The notes under the pieces were generated by a model. It worked only from the letters and a program-made list of their open reading frames with translations, was not told where the DNA came from and did not search any database. Positions 4,861 to 60,006 of a DNA stretch of 64,000 nt are shown piece by piece; position 1 is the first letter of the stretch, and every line of letters starts with the position of its first letter. The stretch comes from Pseudomonas sp. Seg1 (GTDB taxonomy: Bacteria; Pseudomonadota; Gammaproteobacteria; Pseudomonadales; Pseudomonadaceae). A program made the position numbers and the translations under genes. Where the stretch lies: the NCBI RefSeq assembly GCF_018326005.1, contig NZ_AP021903.1, positions 1,366,001 through 1,430,000 on the forward strand, given 5' to 3'.

Positions 4861-5031
4861 GGTTCCGTTTCTGCCTTCCCTGTGATATAAAATGCGCCGC
4901 TTTCCGGGGATACCCCGAAAGGCTTAAATCCACACACGTGTCGACACGATGACCTGGGTGCTTTTGGCTTTATGCCACTGGTTGGTCATTGGGATACGTG
5001 GAGGCCAAACCCGACTTATTAAGGAACTATC
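4861..5031 (+). promoter_or_regulatory. rpsB promoter and long mRNA leader
   Basis: The map-rpsB gap (4659-5031) holds an extended -10 element, TGTGATATAAAAT at 4881-4893, followed by a GC-rich start region with a hairpin (TTTCCGGGGATACCCCGAAA, about 4901-4920) and a ~100-base leader ending in the SD AAGGAACT before ATG at 5032. In gamma-proteobacteria the rpsB-tsf operon is driven by one strong conserved promoter, and free S2 represses through the rpsB leader. Position and layout fit that; S2 binding here is inferred, not seen. Confidence 0.6.
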
Positions 5032-16676: not shown

Positions 16677-17117
16677 ATGATGGACATCAACGAGATTCGC
16701 GAATACCTGCCTCACCGTTACCCGTTCCTGCTGGTGGACCGGGTGGTGGAACTGGACACTGAAGGCAAGCGCATTCGCGCCTACAAGAATGTCAGCATCA
16801 ATGAGCCGTTCTTCAATGGTCACTTCCCGGCGCATCCAATCATGCCGGGCGTGCTGATCATCGAGGCGATGGCTCAGGCTGCCGGGATCCTCGGTTTCAA
16901 AATGCTCGACGTCAAACCGGCCGACGGCACCCTGTATTACTTCGTCGGTTCCGACAAGCTGCGCTTCCGCCAGCCTGTGCTTCCGGGTGATCAGTTGATC
17001 CTCGAAGCCAAGTTCATCAGCTGCAAGCGCCAGATCTGGAAATTCGAATGCCAGGCTTCGGTCGACGGCAAGCCAGTCTGCTCCGCTGAAATCATCTGCG
17101 CGGAACGCAAGCTATGA
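16677..17117 (+). CDS. fabZ: 3-hydroxyacyl-[ACP] dehydratase FabZ
   Basis: Dehydrates 3-hydroxyacyl-ACP in fatty-acid elongation and so competes with LpxA/LpxD for substrate. 146 residues, hotdog fold. The catalytic His is in [13 protein letters not shown] and the Glu in [11 protein letters not shown]. Two adjacent ATGs (16677 and 16680) are possible starts. Its stop overlaps the lpxA start (ATGA). The gap from lpxD (105 bases) is the only sizeable one in this lipid A string. Confidence 0.97.
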
Positions 17118-39893: not shown

Positions 39894-39901
39894 CAGGGCT
39901 G

Positions 39902-40030
39902 TGTCGACGGACAGACACGCCCTTCAAGGATGAGGGGAATGGACATCGCAGGACGCGATTCATCAGGACGATGAAAAGGAACACAGGGAATAGGGAAAAA
40001 ATGTGGGCGGGTCAAACCGCCCCTTTTTTT
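39902..40030 (+). ncRNA. rsmZ: small regulatory RNA RsmZ
   Basis: GacA-activated RNA that sequesters the translational repressors RsmA/RsmE through many GGA motifs. The 5' end TGTCGACGGACAGACACG forms the known first hairpin; nine GGA triplets are seen between 39909 and about 39997, several in hairpin loops (CATCGCAGGACGCGATT, CATCAGGACGATG). It ends in a perfect terminator GGGCGGGTCAAACCGCCC followed by eight Ts. The position between rpoS and fdxA is the canonical Pseudomonas locus. Confidence 0.93.
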
Positions 40031-43344: not shown

Positions 43345-43371
43345 TTGTCTTCGCGAAAAACTTCAAGCACT

Positions 43372-44115
43372 ATGCGCGTTATGCAAAAACGCAACGTATC
43401 CTCCGTCTTAAGAGCACTGCTCGACCAGCACGGGATCTCCCCCACGGAGCTCCACCGTCGCACCGGCGTGCCTCAATCCACTCTCTCGCGAATTCTCAGC
43501 GGGAAGATCGTCGATCCTTCGGATAAACACATCTCGAAGATCGCCGAGTACTTCAATGTAAGCACCGATCAGTTGCGCGGGCGCGCGGATGTTGCGCCGT
43601 CGGCCGTTGCCGCGCGTGATGACGTACACGCGGAACTCAAGGACATAATGCTGTGGGACGACGACACCCCTGTCGATGACGACGAGGTGTCGGTGCCGTT
43701 TCTTCGCGAGGTTGAATTGGCAGCAGGATCAGGAAGATTCGTCATCGAAGAGAGCGAGCGCTCTAGTCTGCGCTTCGGCAAGCGCAGCCTGCGTCATAAC
43801 GGTGTGCAGTTCGATCAGGCCAAGTGCGTGACCGTGCGCGGCAACAGCATGTTGCCGGTACTGCGTGACGGCGCCACGGTTGGCGTGAACGCAGGCAAGT
43901 GCGGGATCGGCGACATCATTGACGGTGATCTGTACGCGATCAACCACAATGGTCAGTTGCGGGTGAAGCAACTCTATCGCCTGCCTACCGGCATCCGTCT
44001 GCGCAGCTTCAATCGTGATGAGCATCCGGACGAGGACTACAGCTTCCAGGAAATCCAGGAAGAGCAGATCGTCATCCTTGGCCACGTCTTCTGGTGGGGC
44101 ATGTACGCCCGTTAA
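43372..44115 (+). CDS. LexA/CI-type repressor with S24 self-cleavage domain (tailocin regulator)
   Basis: 247 residues from ATG 43372 (ATG 43381 is an alternative; neither has a clear SD). N-terminal HTH of the XRE type: HGISPTELHRRTGVPQSTLSRILSG (residues ~20-50). The C-terminal S24 peptidase has the cleavage-site-like Ala-Gly in VELAAGSGRF, the catalytic Ser in VRGNSMLPVLRDG and the Lys in LRVKQLYRLP. By analogy with PrtR and phage CI it should repress tail and lysis genes until RecA-stimulated cleavage after DNA damage. No PrtN-like activator is seen nearby, so control is probably by direct repression at the ATGC-N6-GCAT sites. Confidence 0.88.
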   Translation: MRVMQKRNVSSVLRALLDQHGISPTELHRRTGVPQSTLSRILSGKIVDPSDKHISKIAEYFNVSTDQLRGRADVAPSAVAARDDVHAELKDIMLWDDDTPVDDDEVSVPFLREVELAAGSGRFVIEESERSSLRFGKRSLRHNGVQFDQAKCVTVRGNSMLPVLRDGATVGVNAGKCGIGDIIDGDLYAINHNGQLRVKQLYRLPTGIRLRSFNRDEHPDEDYSFQEIQEEQIVILGHVFWWGMYAR

Positions 44116-44134: not shown

Positions 44135-44160
44135 AACCCGCCCATTGGCGGGTTTTTTTT
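44135..44160 (+). terminator. repressor-gene terminator
   Basis: AACCCGCC - CATT - GGCGGGTT followed by six more Ts, 20 bases after the repressor stop. Confidence 0.9.
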
Positions 44161-44233: not shown

Positions 44234-44247
44234 ATGCATTTACGCAT
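44234..44247. promoter_or_regulatory. operator O3
   Basis: ATGCATTTACGCAT, ATGC-N6-GCAT; its last base is the first T of the -35 box TTGACT. Its centre is 23 bases before that of O4. Confidence 0.68.
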
Positions 44248-44275
44248 TGACTGGATATGCATACATGCATATTAT
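44247..44275 (+). promoter_or_regulatory. near-consensus sigma-70 promoter of the tailocin late region
   Basis: TTGACT (44247-44252), a 17-base spacer and TATTAT (44270-44275); each hexamer has one mismatch to consensus. The spacer is filled by operator O4 and the -35 box touches O3, so a bound repressor would block polymerase. Predicted start is about 44282. Confidence 0.75.
44257..44270. promoter_or_regulatory. operator O4 inside the promoter spacer
   Basis: ATGCATACATGCAT, extended to a perfect 18-base palindrome ATATGCAT-AC-ATGCATAT (44255-44272). The best copy of the four. Confidence 0.72.
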
Positions 44276-44281
44276 TGCCAC

Positions 44282-44571
44282 CAAGCCGCTCGACAAAGCG
44301 GCTGGAAACGAAAGCTCTTTAGTTCCACAAGAACAGGCAGCGATGAACCGGCCTCAACGGTTCAGAGGGTTGGCAACTGACCCGGGTGTGCAGCGTAAAG
44401 CACCAGAAGCAGTTATCCGGCGGGCAGGGACCGCGGTCGGAAAAACAATTTGAATGGACTCGTACCGCGCCAGTAGCGCCGAACAGTCAGCTTCCTTCTT
44501 GAACACAGGATTTGAAGGAAGGCGAAGGAGCGCATTACTGAAAAGCCCGGCGTTCAAACACCGGGCTTTTT
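44282..44571 (+). ncRNA. predicted structured leader RNA of the tailocin locus
   Basis: No convincing ORF, but dense pairing: AGCCGCT/AGCGGCT (44284-44303); a two-hairpin branch closed by CTCT/AGAG (44315-44367) with GTTC/GAAC and GAACCG/CGGTTC inside; AACTG/CAGTT (44375-44414) enclosing GGTG/CACC; CTTCCTTC/GAAGGAAG (44491-44521); and a terminator at the end. It starts at the repressed promoter and lies upstream of the holin and all tail genes. It could be a regulatory sRNA or an antiterminator leader (put-RNA-like). The functional call is inference from layout. Confidence 0.55.
44541..44571 (+). terminator. intrinsic terminator at the end of the leader RNA
   Basis: AAAAGCCCGG / CCGGGCTTTTT with a 10-base loop. 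It stands between the only strong promoter seen in the locus and the tail genes, so late expression needs readthrough or another promoter. Confidence 0.82.
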
Positions 44572-44673
44572 GGAATGCCTACCTGTCGTAATTGGCGTTT
44601 TCCCCAGTCGCGGTTAACGCAAGGTTGGCAGATGAAAACAACATTTAATGAAACTTCGTAGCAAGGAAATATG

Positions 44674-45099
44674 ATGAATCGATACGTATTTATTGACGCT
44701 TACAGCCCACCTTTCACCCGTGCGGTACAAATTGTGGATGCAGAGGAATCGCCGCAATTTACCCCACCAGGGCCATCTGGTTATTGGGTCCAGGTCTCTA
44801 TCGACACTCCGGTTCAAGTGGGCTGGAAGGGTAATTACGTTGGCAATGGCTGGGTGTTCACTGAGCTGACCTATGAAGATAACGTCGTTGTCCTTGATAT
44901 TCGAGTGCGCCAACTACTGACTCAGGCCGCTAGTTGGCTGACGGTCAATCCTCTGCAGTACAAACTCGACCTGGGTGTTGCCAGCAGTTCCGAGACCGAA
45001 CTGCTGCTTGCCTATAAGCAGTACTGCGTCGCAATCAGTGACATTAAAGACCAAGCTGGTTATCCCTATACAATCAACTGGCCAGTTGCTCCCTTCTAA
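44674..45099 (+). CDS. tail-fibre-assembly-like protein (orphan)
   Basis: 141 residues from ATG 44674 (SD AAGGA 6 bases before; ATG 44671 is too close to it). The C-terminal half resembles phage tail-fibre chaperones: LLAYKQYCVAISDIKDQAGY followed by INWPVAPF, the usual YR..L..I..Q.G.P...WP..P ending. The N-terminal half (PPGPSGYWVQVS, GNGWVFTEL) is also of the kind seen in such proteins. No fibre gene precedes it, so it is either a chaperone acting on a fibre encoded elsewhere in the locus or a remnant. Base composition is less GC-rich than the flanking tail genes. Confidence 0.6.
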   Translation: MNRYVFIDAYSPPFTRAVQIVDAEESPQFTPPGPSGYWVQVSIDTPVQVGWKGNYVGNGWVFTELTYEDNVVVLDIRVRQLLTQAASWLTVNPLQYKLDLGVASSSETELLLAYKQYCVAISDIKDQAGYPYTINWPVAPF

Positions 45100-45354: not shown

Positions 45355-45693
45355 ATGACAAACGAGCAACAAGCGTTGGCGGACATGCCGATCTGGCTGG
45401 TCATCCTCCTTGCCATCGTCGGCGGGGTGTCTGGCGAAATGTGGCGCGCTGACAAGGAGGGCGCTCGCGGCTGGCCGCTTTTGCGCCGTCTCGCGCTGCG
45501 CTCCGGCGCCTGCATGATCTGCGGCGTCTCGGCGATCATGCTGTTGTATGCCGCCGGCATGTCGATCTGGGCCGCCGGAGCATTCGGTTGCCTGACCGCC
45601 ATGGCCGGTGCCGACGTGGCCATCGGTCTGTATGAACGCTGGGCCGCCAAGCGCATCGGCGTCTGCGAAGTCCCGCCGCGCGACCAGCCTTGA
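45355..45693 (+). CDS. phage-type holin
   Basis: 112 residues with SD AGGAGG. Hydrophobic segments at residues ~13-30 (IWLVILLAIVGGVSG), ~50-70 and ~70-90 (CMICGVSAIMLLYAAGMSIW and AGAFGCLTAMAGADVAIGLY), with a charged end. Fits the R-pyocin holin family that opens the inner membrane for lysin release. No endolysin or spanin gene occurs in the window; they may follow module 2 beyond the edge. Confidence 0.85.
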   Translation: MTNEQQALADMPIWLVILLAIVGGVSGEMWRADKEGARGWPLLRRLALRSGACMICGVSAIMLLYAAGMSIWAAGAFGCLTAMAGADVAIGLYERWAAKRIGVCEVPPRDQP

Positions 45694-50416: not shown

Positions 50417-50842
50417 ATGCACTATTCACCGTCTAAAAATGGCTTTTATGATCCGGGTTTTACCGGTCGAGTTCCTATCGATGTAGTACCGATTACTGCA
50501 GAAGAACATCTTCGTTTGCTGGACGGGCAGAGTCGGGGGCTAATAATCGAGGCTGGTCCGCAAGGTTTTCCAATTTTAAAAGCACGGCCTGCACTGACAG
50601 CCGAACAGTTAGCGACCGCCGAACGCTATTGGCGTGATCAGCGCCTGGCGGAAACGGACGGCATTGTCGCCAGGCATCGTGACGAGCAAGAAGAAGGTCA
50701 GAACACGACGCTGGCTCCGGAGGAATATGGTCAGCTGCAGTCTTATCGTCGCACATTGCGTAGCTGGCCGGAGGCGGGGGAGTTTCCGTTGTCGGCACAC
50801 CGTCCTCAAGCGCCTGCATGGCTCTCGCTACTGCCCCTATAA
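50417..50842 (+). CDS. tail fibre assembly chaperone (Tfa)
   Basis: 141 residues from ATG 50417. Begins MHYSPSKNGFYDPGFTGRVP with IDVVPITAEEHLRLLDGQSRG, then a helical middle and the WP-containing end (RSWPEAGEFPLSAHRPQAPAW). This is the usual partner of the fibre just upstream. Its first half shares the lower GC of the fibre tip, as expected for a fibre-Tfa swap unit. Confidence 0.88.
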   Translation: MHYSPSKNGFYDPGFTGRVPIDVVPITAEEHLRLLDGQSRGLIIEAGPQGFPILKARPALTAEQLATAERYWRDQRLAETDGIVARHRDEQEEGQNTTLAPEEYGQLQSYRRTLRSWPEAGEFPLSAHRPQAPAWLSLLPL

Positions 50843-50868
50843 ACGCCCCTTACTCCGGGGCGTTTTCT
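50841..50868 (+). terminator. terminator after tfa
   Basis: AACGCCCC - TTACTC - CGGGGCGTTTTC, immediately at the tfa stop. Confidence 0.8.
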
Positions 50869-58279: not shown

Positions 58280-58458
58280 GCAATCGCATCACCGTACAGC
58301 CGGCCGCTGGCCGCGCTGTACCTGACCCGGAGGCGGGCGACCTGCTGCCTCTCGAAGGCCGTGAAGTGCTGGACAGCGCCTGGTGGCGCCGGCGTCTGGC
58401 CGACGGCGATATCACTATCAAAACCGCAAAAGCGGCTAAACCACAGGGAGCCAAATAA
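58276..58458 (+). CDS. DUF2635 protein (Mu gp38-like)
   Basis: 60 residues: ITVQPAAGRAVPDPEAGDLL, PLEGREVLDSAWWRRRLADG and the Lys/Ala tail TIKTAKAAKPQGAK. Fits the small DUF2635 family invariably before Mu-type sheaths; its function is unknown. Shares one base with the sheath start (TAATG). Confidence 0.85.
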   Translation: MSNRITVQPAAGRAVPDPEAGDLLPLEGREVLDSAWWRRRLADGDITIKTAKAAKPQGAK

Positions 58459-59954
58459 TGGCGATCGGATTCAGCAACATCCCCGCGGACATTCGTGTTC
58501 CGCTGTTCTATGCCGAAATGGACAATTCGGCCGCCAATAGCGCGAGCTCGTCTCTGCGTCGTTTGATCGTCGCTCAGGTCAACGACAACATTGCCCCGAC
58601 TGAAGTCGGCAAACTGGTGCTGGTTTCCAGCGTTGCGCTGGCCAAGAGCATCGGTGGCCAGGGCTCGATGCTCGCCTCGATGTACGAAACCTTCCGCAAG
58701 GCCGACCCGATCGGCGAGATCTGGTGCCTGCCGCTGCACAACACTGAAGGTGCCATCGCCAAAGGCGTACTGACCCTGACCGGCACCGCCACTCAGGCTG
58801 GCGTACTCAACCTGTATGTTGGCGGCGTGCGTGTGCAAGCCACCGTGGTCAACGGTGCCACCGCGGCACAAGCAGCGACTGCGCTGGCGCAGAAAATCAA
58901 CGCCACGGCCGATCTGCCGGTGAGCGCTGTGGCTGCCGAAGGCGTGGTCACCCTGAACGCCAAATGGACCGGCGATAGCGGCAACGACATCAGCCTGCAA
59001 TTCAATCGCCTGGGCAAGAGCAACGGCGAAGAAACCCCGGCCGGCCTGACCTCCGCAATCACCGCCATGACCGGCGGCGCCGGCGTGCCGGATCAGATCG
59101 CTGCCGTGGCGGCACTGGGTGACGAACCCTTCGAGTTCATCGCATTGCCATGGTCGGATCTGTCGACCCTCAACACCTGGCAAGCCGTCATGGATGACAG
59201 CACCGGTCGCTGGTCCTGGGCCAAGCAACTGTTCGGTCACGTCTACAGCGCCAAGCGTGGCACCGTTGGCACGCTGGTCGCCGCCGGCCAGGCGCGCAAT
59301 GACCAGCACATGACCATTCAGGCGCTGGAGCCGGGCGTACCGCAACCGTTCTGGGTACAAGCTGCAGCACTGGCTGCGCGCACCGCCGTGTTCATCTCCG
59401 CCGACGCCAGCCGTCCGACCCAAAGCGGCAGCCTGCCGGGCGTCGATCCTGCGCCGGCGAGCGAGCGCTTCACCCTGACCGAGCGTCAGTCGCTGCTCAA
59501 CTACGGCATCGCCACCGCTTACTACGAAGGCGGTTACGTGCGCATCCAGCGTTCGATCACCACCTACCAGAAAAACGCCTACGGTCAGGCTGACAACTCC
59601 TACCTGGACAGCGAAACCATGCACCAGTCGGCGTTCATCGTGCGTCGTCTGCAAAGCGTGATCACCAGCAAGTACGGTCGGCACAAACTGGCCTCCGACG
59701 GCACCCGTTTCGGCGCCGGCCAGCCAATCGTGACGCCAGCGACCATTCGCGGCGAGCTGATCGCGCAGTACGCCAAGCTCGAACTGGAAGGCCATGTGGA
59801 GAACGCCGAGCTGTTCGCCGAGCACCTGATCGTCGAGCGCGACGTGCAGGACCCGAGCCGCGTGAACGTGCTGTTCCCGCCGGATTACATCAACGGTCTG
59901 CGTGTGTTCGCACTGCTCAACCAATTCCGTCTGCAGTACGACGACGCGGCTTGA
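58458..59954 (+). CDS. tail sheath protein, module 2 (Mu gpL-like)
   Basis: 498 residues, much longer than and clearly different from the module 1 sheath. MAIGFSNIPADIRVPLFYAE start; DEPFEFIALPWSDLSTLNTW; ITTYQKNAYGQADNSYLDSE; end NVLFPPDYINGLRVFALLNQ and FRLQYD. An inserted domain (residues ~100-200: GVLTLTGTATQAGVLNLYVG..KINATADLPVSAVAAEGVVT) is a typical surface domain of Mu-like sheaths. Confidence 0.93.
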   Translation: MAIGFSNIPADIRVPLFYAEMDNSAANSASSSLRRLIVAQVNDNIAPTEVGKLVLVSSVALAKSIGGQGSMLASMYETFRKADPIGEIWCLPLHNTEGAIAKGVLTLTGTATQAGVLNLYVGGVRVQATVVNGATAAQAATALAQKINATADLPVSAVAAEGVVTLNAKWTGDSGNDISLQFNRLGKSNGEETPAGLTSAITAMTGGAGVPDQIAAVAALGDEPFEFIALPWSDLSTLNTWQAVMDDSTGRWSWAKQLFGHVYSAKRGTVGTLVAAGQARNDQHMTIQALEPGVPQPFWVQAAALAARTAVFISADASRPTQSGSLPGVDPAPASERFTLTERQSLLNYGIATAYYEGGYVRIQRSITTYQKNAYGQADNSYLDSETMHQSAFIVRRLQSVITSKYGRHKLASDGTRFGAGQPIVTPATIRGELIAQYAKLELEGHVENAELFAEHLIVERDVQDPSRVNVLFPPDYINGLRVFALLNQFRLQYDDAA

Positions 59955-59979: not shown

Positions 59980-60006
59980 AGCCCACCTCGCGTGGGCTTT
60001 TTTATT
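59980..60006 (+). terminator. terminator between sheath and tube genes, module 2
   Basis: AGCCCAC - CTCGC - GTGGGCT followed by TTTTTT. It would reduce or stop transcription in the middle of the structural genes unless read through. Confidence 0.82.

Follow-up and report, generated by a model that had tools for sequence, protein, structure and literature searches.

What does a repressor-controlled tailocin promoter transcribe before it reaches its first gene, and to what effect? In Pseudomonas sp. Seg1 (host genome of 6.6 Mb, Pseudomonas-type), about 290 nt separate such a promoter from the far end of a strong terminator upstream of holin and tail genes, within the 64,000-nt stretch of DNA analysed here (the window). 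A preliminary description had read this interval as a structured RNA of at least five stems, holding no credible protein and corresponding to no described RNA, and had offered three functions for it: an antiterminator acting on polymerase as the put RNA of phage HK022 does, a regulatory small RNA, or a timing device for lysis.

The leader RNA and its conserved core

The interval 44282-44571 is a non-coding leader RNA. The features of the locus, in window coordinates, are as follows:

43345-44115, + strand: S24-type phage repressor gene, HTH and Peptidase_S24 domains (Pfam PF00717, PF01381; phrog_4)
44135-44154: terminator behind the S24-type repressor gene (terminator scan)
44234-44270, no strand assigned: A+T-rich inverted repeats spanning the promoter (repeat from the minus-strand scan)
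44247-44275, + strand: sigma-70 type promoter, TTGACT-17-TATTAT (10/12 match)
44284-44303, + strand: 5' terminal hairpin of the leader (energy fold)
44313-44321, + strand: boxA AGCTCTTTA (8/9 against CGCTCTTTA)
44333-44450, + strand: conserved pseudoknotted RNA core, 118 nt (models R1, R2)
44344-44364, + strand: helix 1 hairpin (44344-44350 with 44358-44364); 6/7 pairs changed on both sides
44367-44383, + strand: helix 2 hairpin (44367-44371 with 44379-44383); 2/5 pairs changed on both sides
44375-44414, + strand: pseudoknot (44375-44378 with 44411-44414); 3/4 pairs changed on both sides
44385-44404, + strand: helix 4 hairpin, loop GCAGCGTAAA (44385-44389 with 44400-44404); 1/5 pairs changed on both sides, in 25 rows
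44416-44441, + strand: helix 5 (44416-44421 with 44436-44441); 6/6 pairs changed on both sides
44467-44479, + strand: GCGC-CAGTA-GCGC hairpin, present in many, not all, copies
44541-44571, + strand: leader terminator AAAAGCCCGG...CCGGGCTTTTT (bidirectional intrinsic terminator at 44545-44566)
44671-45099, + strand: tail fibre assembly-like gene (PF02413), between leader and holin
45355-45693, + strand: holin gene (PF16085)
50842-50864, + strand: terminator within the tailocin operon, with similar ones in relatives
58458-59954: sheath gene of the window
59980-59998, + strand: sheath-tube terminator, about 20 nt ahead of the tube ATG
from 60021: tube gene of the window

The gene on the opposite strand upstream of the repressor gene, named by eye, is presumably mutS-like. 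The inverted repeats at 44234-44270 are presumed operators, and transcription from the promoter that they span is predicted to start near 44282. Further tail genes follow the holin on the same strand; the tail fibre assembly-like gene is variable cargo, carried by only some relatives.

The leader strand folds with an energy of -108 kcal/mol, as compared with a mean of -92.3 (sd 4.9) for shuffled sequences (z -3.2; 0 of 200 shuffles as low). Searching the interval against Rfam returned chance-level matches only, far below gathering scores (E up to 5). Elsewhere in the window, Rfam matches are ordinary (RsmZ at 39900-40030 and t44 at 4913-5010).

The constrained unit of the leader is the core, with the 5' hairpin and boxA ahead of it and the 3' hairpins behind; hairpins resembling GCCGGATAACAACCGGCC occupy the 5' terminal position in phage copies. 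Across 62 aligned cores (62 model hits, 58 distinct), covariation recovers four helices and the pseudoknot, with 98.8% of cells paired and double-sided changes at 18 of the 27 pairs. Shuffling the sequences 500 times, a control that does not preserve their relatedness, never reached any of the five covariation measures. When partners are slid by 1-3 columns, paired cells fall to 27-49% and the covariation score declines from 0.387 to at most 0.094. A 36-sequence alignment gives the same picture, with candidate kissing pairs counted in its tally and left out of the 62-row tally. The larger alignment (A4) drew on 63 sources, 62 of which gave a match (L158 gave none), and a copy with a core deletion (L191) was left out; the smaller (A2) comprises 36 of 44 representatives, the seven false matches and a true copy with a long insertion (L067) having been dropped.

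The pseudoknot, which joins the helix 2 loop to 44411-44414, was absent from the model that built the alignment; its pairs change from AU to CG in 11 rows, from AU to UA in 8, and from UA to CG in 3. Several single-stranded stretches of the core, the helix 4 loop among them, are near-invariant. The stem at 44490-44520 falls outside this core, and the long-range nested helices that the energy fold had predicted give way to the hairpin at 44367-44383 with its loop pseudoknot. What decided against the nested helices was that some rows break pairs 8-38 and 47-80, and that double-sided changes are seen at 35-51 and 38-48. Kissing pairs between the loops of helix 1 (GCC) and helix 2 (GGC) were also rejected: 0 of 3 covary, and their 95.3% of paired cells equals that of shuffles. 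A structured RNA between promoter and terminator, as the preliminary description proposed, is thus borne out by the energy of the fold and by pairing conserved in relatives, and the finding reaches further than first thought; we regard the RNA family as real with near certainty.

No reading frame is conserved in the core. Each of the six frames is interrupted by stops in 24 to 55 of the 62 aligned cores, the length of the core leaves a remainder of 0, 1, and 2 on division by 3 in 36, 16, and 10 rows, respectively, and substitutions are even across codon phases (393/442/411); together, these observations argue against a conserved frame and agree with the absence of a credible protein noted earlier. 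A divergent subfamily (L190, L192, L194, and L196-L200) has the loop GCCTC with a matching pseudoknot partner, as well as a conserved stretch resembling CTGTTGGG behind helix 5.

Distribution and operon contexts

Matches to the leader were found in 178 of 298 genomes of the genus (E up to 1e-3), in up to four places per genome; the weakest of these may reflect the terminator hairpin alone, because the query was the whole leader. In the same genus comparison, 44327-44483 or parts of it retain near 85-93% identity in places that have lost the flanking sequence. Blast identified the leader in 10 phage records and 27 Pseudomonas plasmids. An exact 18-mer of the RNA occurs in at least 120 listed IMG/VR stretches, a viral set that leans to the main subfamily because it was gathered by that exact 18-mer.

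A covariance model built from 36 sequences (R1) matched 114 of the 398 family genomes searched, in 6 of 19 genera, with sequences inspected from three of the six genera. At least one of these matches is a CRISPR spacer (in G670), and a further two have E values above 0.005. Under strict filters, R1 matched 1 of 369 genomes of the class, namely the genome that contains the window. The model R2 matched 18 of 390 genomes of the order: seven matches are strong and come exclusively from the genus, one is the CRISPR spacer of G670, and the other 10 have E values of 3.7e-4 to 8e-3, the four of them that were inspected (L245-L248) looking like chance. A pattern search of genome contigs gave four matches, three of which (L233-L235) had no model match. 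The CRISPR array (L244; G670:C15, around 16880-16995) has 28-nt repeats, which we take to have a type I-F look, with CC presumably its motif; a 32-nt spacer of the array matches helix 4 region DNA in two genomes of the same genus (L197 and L198) at 31 of 32 letters, and CC precedes the protospacer.

Each of 23 phage or tailocin records holds one strong copy of the RNA; further weak matches in four of these records (E 0.04-0.41) were not accepted, and the cro-side operon therefore carries no recognisable second copy. Candidate second copies per phage that were sought with the pattern GGCAGCGAT at seven loci resolve into one true copy (L090) and second matches of unrelated sequence, and weak model matches at E 0.06-0.9 lack most core features in alignment. 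Plasmid PP3 (NZ_LT963394.1) has two more partial copies of the RNA, at 88899-88968 and 90146-90229, besides the full one. Literature listings from the open-licence PMC library did not name the RNA family.

The same RNA heads three unrelated kinds of repressor-linked operon, namely tailocins, phage early operons, and conjugation operons. Tailocin copies comprise that of the window, that of DVM-2008 (behind prtR), and those of 20 relatives with a holin gene. Among phages, the RNA lies beside Cro and cI in Medea1, behind cI in PseuP_224, and beside a repressor-like gene in Orimi01; the operons of Medea1 and Orimi01 lead to an ERF recombination gene, and the first protein behind the RNA in Orimi01 matched only itself in a similarity search. 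The phage class of four further loci rests on a nearby S24 repressor, recognised by Pfam in L190, L194, and L196 and by similarity in L205. Conjugation-operon copies are found on plasmids of the P. syringae group: in PP3 the order is LexA-family repressor, Cro/CI, RNA, lytic transglycosylase, VirB3-family protein, conjugal transfer protein, and VirB5, and in p2_tig3 a regulator, the RNA, and a transglycosylase are broken by IS91. Other loci of the conjugation type have S24, SLT, and VirB4-family genes (L204), S24 and VirB4-family genes (L202), or SLT (L203).

Between classes, the only proteins in common from -3.5 to +8 kb are the repressor and Cro-like proteins (14 loci, three classes); the remaining cross-class protein matches in these loci are ORFs over the RNA itself. 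On this comparison, what travels together is the repressor, the promoter, and the RNA. Holin genes do not follow the RNA in the annotated copies from phages and plasmids, and for this reason the suggestion of a timing device for lysis is disfavoured.

Transcription signals and the proposed function

Scored against the promoter consensus, promoter-like signals occur within 160 bases upstream of the core in 50 of 69 non-redundant copies, as compared with 9.75 expected from shuffles and 1 in a downstream control stretch. About two thirds of the 69 copies place the -10 box close to one of three positions relative to the core (-31, -54, or -95), and the RNA thus appears, from sequence, to sit at the start of the transcript. 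Matches to the boxA consensus CGCTCTTTA lie upstream of the core in 24 of 58 non-redundant copies when one mismatch is allowed (17 of 58 exactly), among them many of the longer leaders; boxA within one mismatch is absent from the other 34 of 58. Neither the opposite strand nor the downstream stretch gave any match (0 in each), and shuffles gave 1 exact match and 18 within one mismatch out of 1160. The boxA of the host 16S leader is CGCTCTTTAACA. Non-redundant sets were drawn by greedy similarity cut-offs, retaining 58 of the 196 copies with enough upstream sequence for boxA, 69 of 213 copies for promoters, and 57 of 100 loci for terminators; L158, which has no model match, is counted among both the 58 and the 69. 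As in the covariation test, the shuffles used for comparison here do not preserve relatedness among the copies.

Polymerase starting at these promoters in tailocins meets terminators. The leader terminator scores at least 13 in 15 of 21 tailocin loci; in seven of the 15 (L216, L217, L226, and L228-L231) the holin ATG lies about 77-118 nt behind it, and no promoter was seen in between. In the window, a promoter-like site behind the leader terminator (44648-44675; 9/12) is no more than chance would give. In all 10 loci that have both sheath and tube, a U-tract hairpin separates the two genes and ends about 20 nt short of the tube start codon, where no promoter fits; DVM-2008 has such a hairpin as well. 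No sheath-tube terminator is seen in six related phages that belong to other genera (four have overlapping genes by annotation, one has no hairpin, and one a hairpin without a clean U run), a comparison confounded by the common descent of Pseudomonas tailocins.

Leader terminators are mainly a tailocin feature, found on the RNA strand in 14 of 69 non-redundant copies versus 9 on the other strand. Within 5 kb, 57 mixed loci have 49 terminators on the RNA strand versus 34 on the other, a weak excess. Phage copies often show a 3' hairpin that continues into the first gene with no U run, and Rho-dependent polarity may be what the RNA acts against in phages and plasmids. In L215, L222, and L214, the leader terminator element occurs again on the far side of the cargo gene that separates leader from holin (at +211 and +801 relative to the core in L215, and at +177 and +769 in L222), as though cargo and terminator copy had entered together. 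A second recurring element precedes the first gene in phage copies (L157, L132, and L102) and consists of TTTCACTGA or GCATCACTGA followed by stem, loop, stem, and TTGGGA; its tailocin counterpart is the U-tract terminator.

The terminators to be passed in tailocins, the boxA of many copies, and the place at the head of three operon types point to a nascent RNA that modifies polymerase. Among the functions first offered, the antiterminator is accordingly the one favoured. From the sequence comparisons above, we consider processive antitermination in cis the probable function of the RNA, which would modify RNA polymerase and thereby allow transcription to reach the end of the long series of genes behind it. 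Loss of the S24 repressor would open the promoter, and the leader, as the first stretch copied by polymerase, would fold while nascent into the pseudoknotted domain. This domain would remain with the elongation complex, assisted by NusB and S10 on boxA where boxA is present, and the modified polymerase would ignore terminators and polarity across the following kilobases. In tailocins it would pass the leader and internal terminators to reach the holin, tail, sheath, and tube genes, and the leader terminator would keep leaky transcription by unmodified polymerase out of the lysis gene; the same RNA cassette would head the phage early and plasmid conjugation operons. In this scheme we infer repressor release, antitermination, polymerase contact, and the role of Nus factors. 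On balance, we lean toward a portable antiterminator RNA cassette shared by Pseudomonas mobile elements, in which one pseudoknotted RNA, with or without boxA, is combined with each element's own repressor and would secure end-to-end transcription of phage early, tailocin, or conjugation operons with no element-encoded antitermination protein.

The same signals could also belong to a trans-acting regulatory RNA, that is, a short RNA ended by the leader terminator that pairs with mRNAs or binds a host protein on induction, the operon being served by other promoters or by leakage. Such an RNA would be expected to have its own promoter and, as in tailocins, its own terminator, and could explain why unpaired parts of the core, the helix 4 loop for one, hardly vary. 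However, the phage 3' hairpin often continues without a U run into the first gene, the place at the operon head is kept across three element types, boxA lies upstream, and no promoter is seen between leader terminator and holin in the seven tailocins named above; we consider this explanation unlikely. An attenuator, or a leader that senses a ligand or protein and switches between terminator and read-through at a signal without staying on polymerase, would fit the succession of folded RNA and leader terminator in tailocins, but most phage and plasmid copies have no terminator, no alternative pairing between core and terminator was noticed (short of a systematic scan), and the genes behind the RNA differ completely among classes, all of which makes it improbable. 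Least probable by our estimate is a 5' stabiliser or translation-related leader protecting a long mRNA, to which the 5' terminal hairpin and compact fold would be suited, but which leaves boxA and the genes behind tailocin terminators unexplained and has no need of near-invariant loops.

Comparison with known antitermination systems

RNA-led processive antitermination is, to our knowledge, known from few systems. If the antiterminator reading is correct, the RNA would constitute a widespread system of this kind in Pseudomonas, and would explain how tailocins, prophages, and conjugative plasmids turn on each of their long silent operons as a whole. The family also adds a new RNA to annotation and a marker for repressor-controlled mobile operons. 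Because natural copies exist with and without boxA, the interchangeability of Nus factors and a polymerase-binding RNA is directly testable.

The boxA of lambda nut sites and of rRNA leaders is bound by NusB-S10, and the Pseudomonas RNA resembles both in that 24 of 58 copies have upstream the motif that the host 16S leader also carries. Unlike lambda nut, its core is not a short hairpin of boxB type, more than half of the copies are without boxA, and no protein gene is common downstream as a candidate shared N (14 loci). EAR RNA contains a pseudoknot. Also known as epsC RNA (RF01735), it is a leader RNA of Bacillales with reported antitermination activity that heads a long operon (PMC2864571); in contrast, the interval gave no RF01735 match up to E 5, and hosts and operons are other ones. 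Pseudomon-2, a Pseudomonas candidate RNA without an Rfam number, was scored as doubtful and not cis-regulatory in its table entry (Weinberg 2010). With no other Rfam family matched, and with Pseudomon-2 compared by that table entry alone, the RNA is classed here as a new family of probable antiterminator RNAs.

Phage HK022 put RNA contacts polymerase at the beta' zinc-binding domain. As reported for HK022, nascent put RNA at an early promoter suppresses termination without a dedicated protein; it is about 70 nt long, forms two stem-loops, and is present in two copies per phage, putL and putR (PMC9378689). The Pseudomonas RNA likewise lies just downstream of an early phage promoter, where it would fold as nascent RNA. 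No dedicated partner protein was seen beside it, only the repressor and Cro-like proteins being common across classes (14 loci). In contrast to put, its core is 118 nt with a pseudoknot, each phage holds one strong copy, and many copies have boxA; R1 found no match in phage HK022 at E up to 10. Since size, fold, and copy number differ and HK022 is without a match, the RNA is not a put, and the likeness drawn in the preliminary description is apt as an analogy and does not extend to membership. By that analogy, the Pseudomonas RNA would work like HK022 put or lambda nut while being unrelated to either in sequence and fold.
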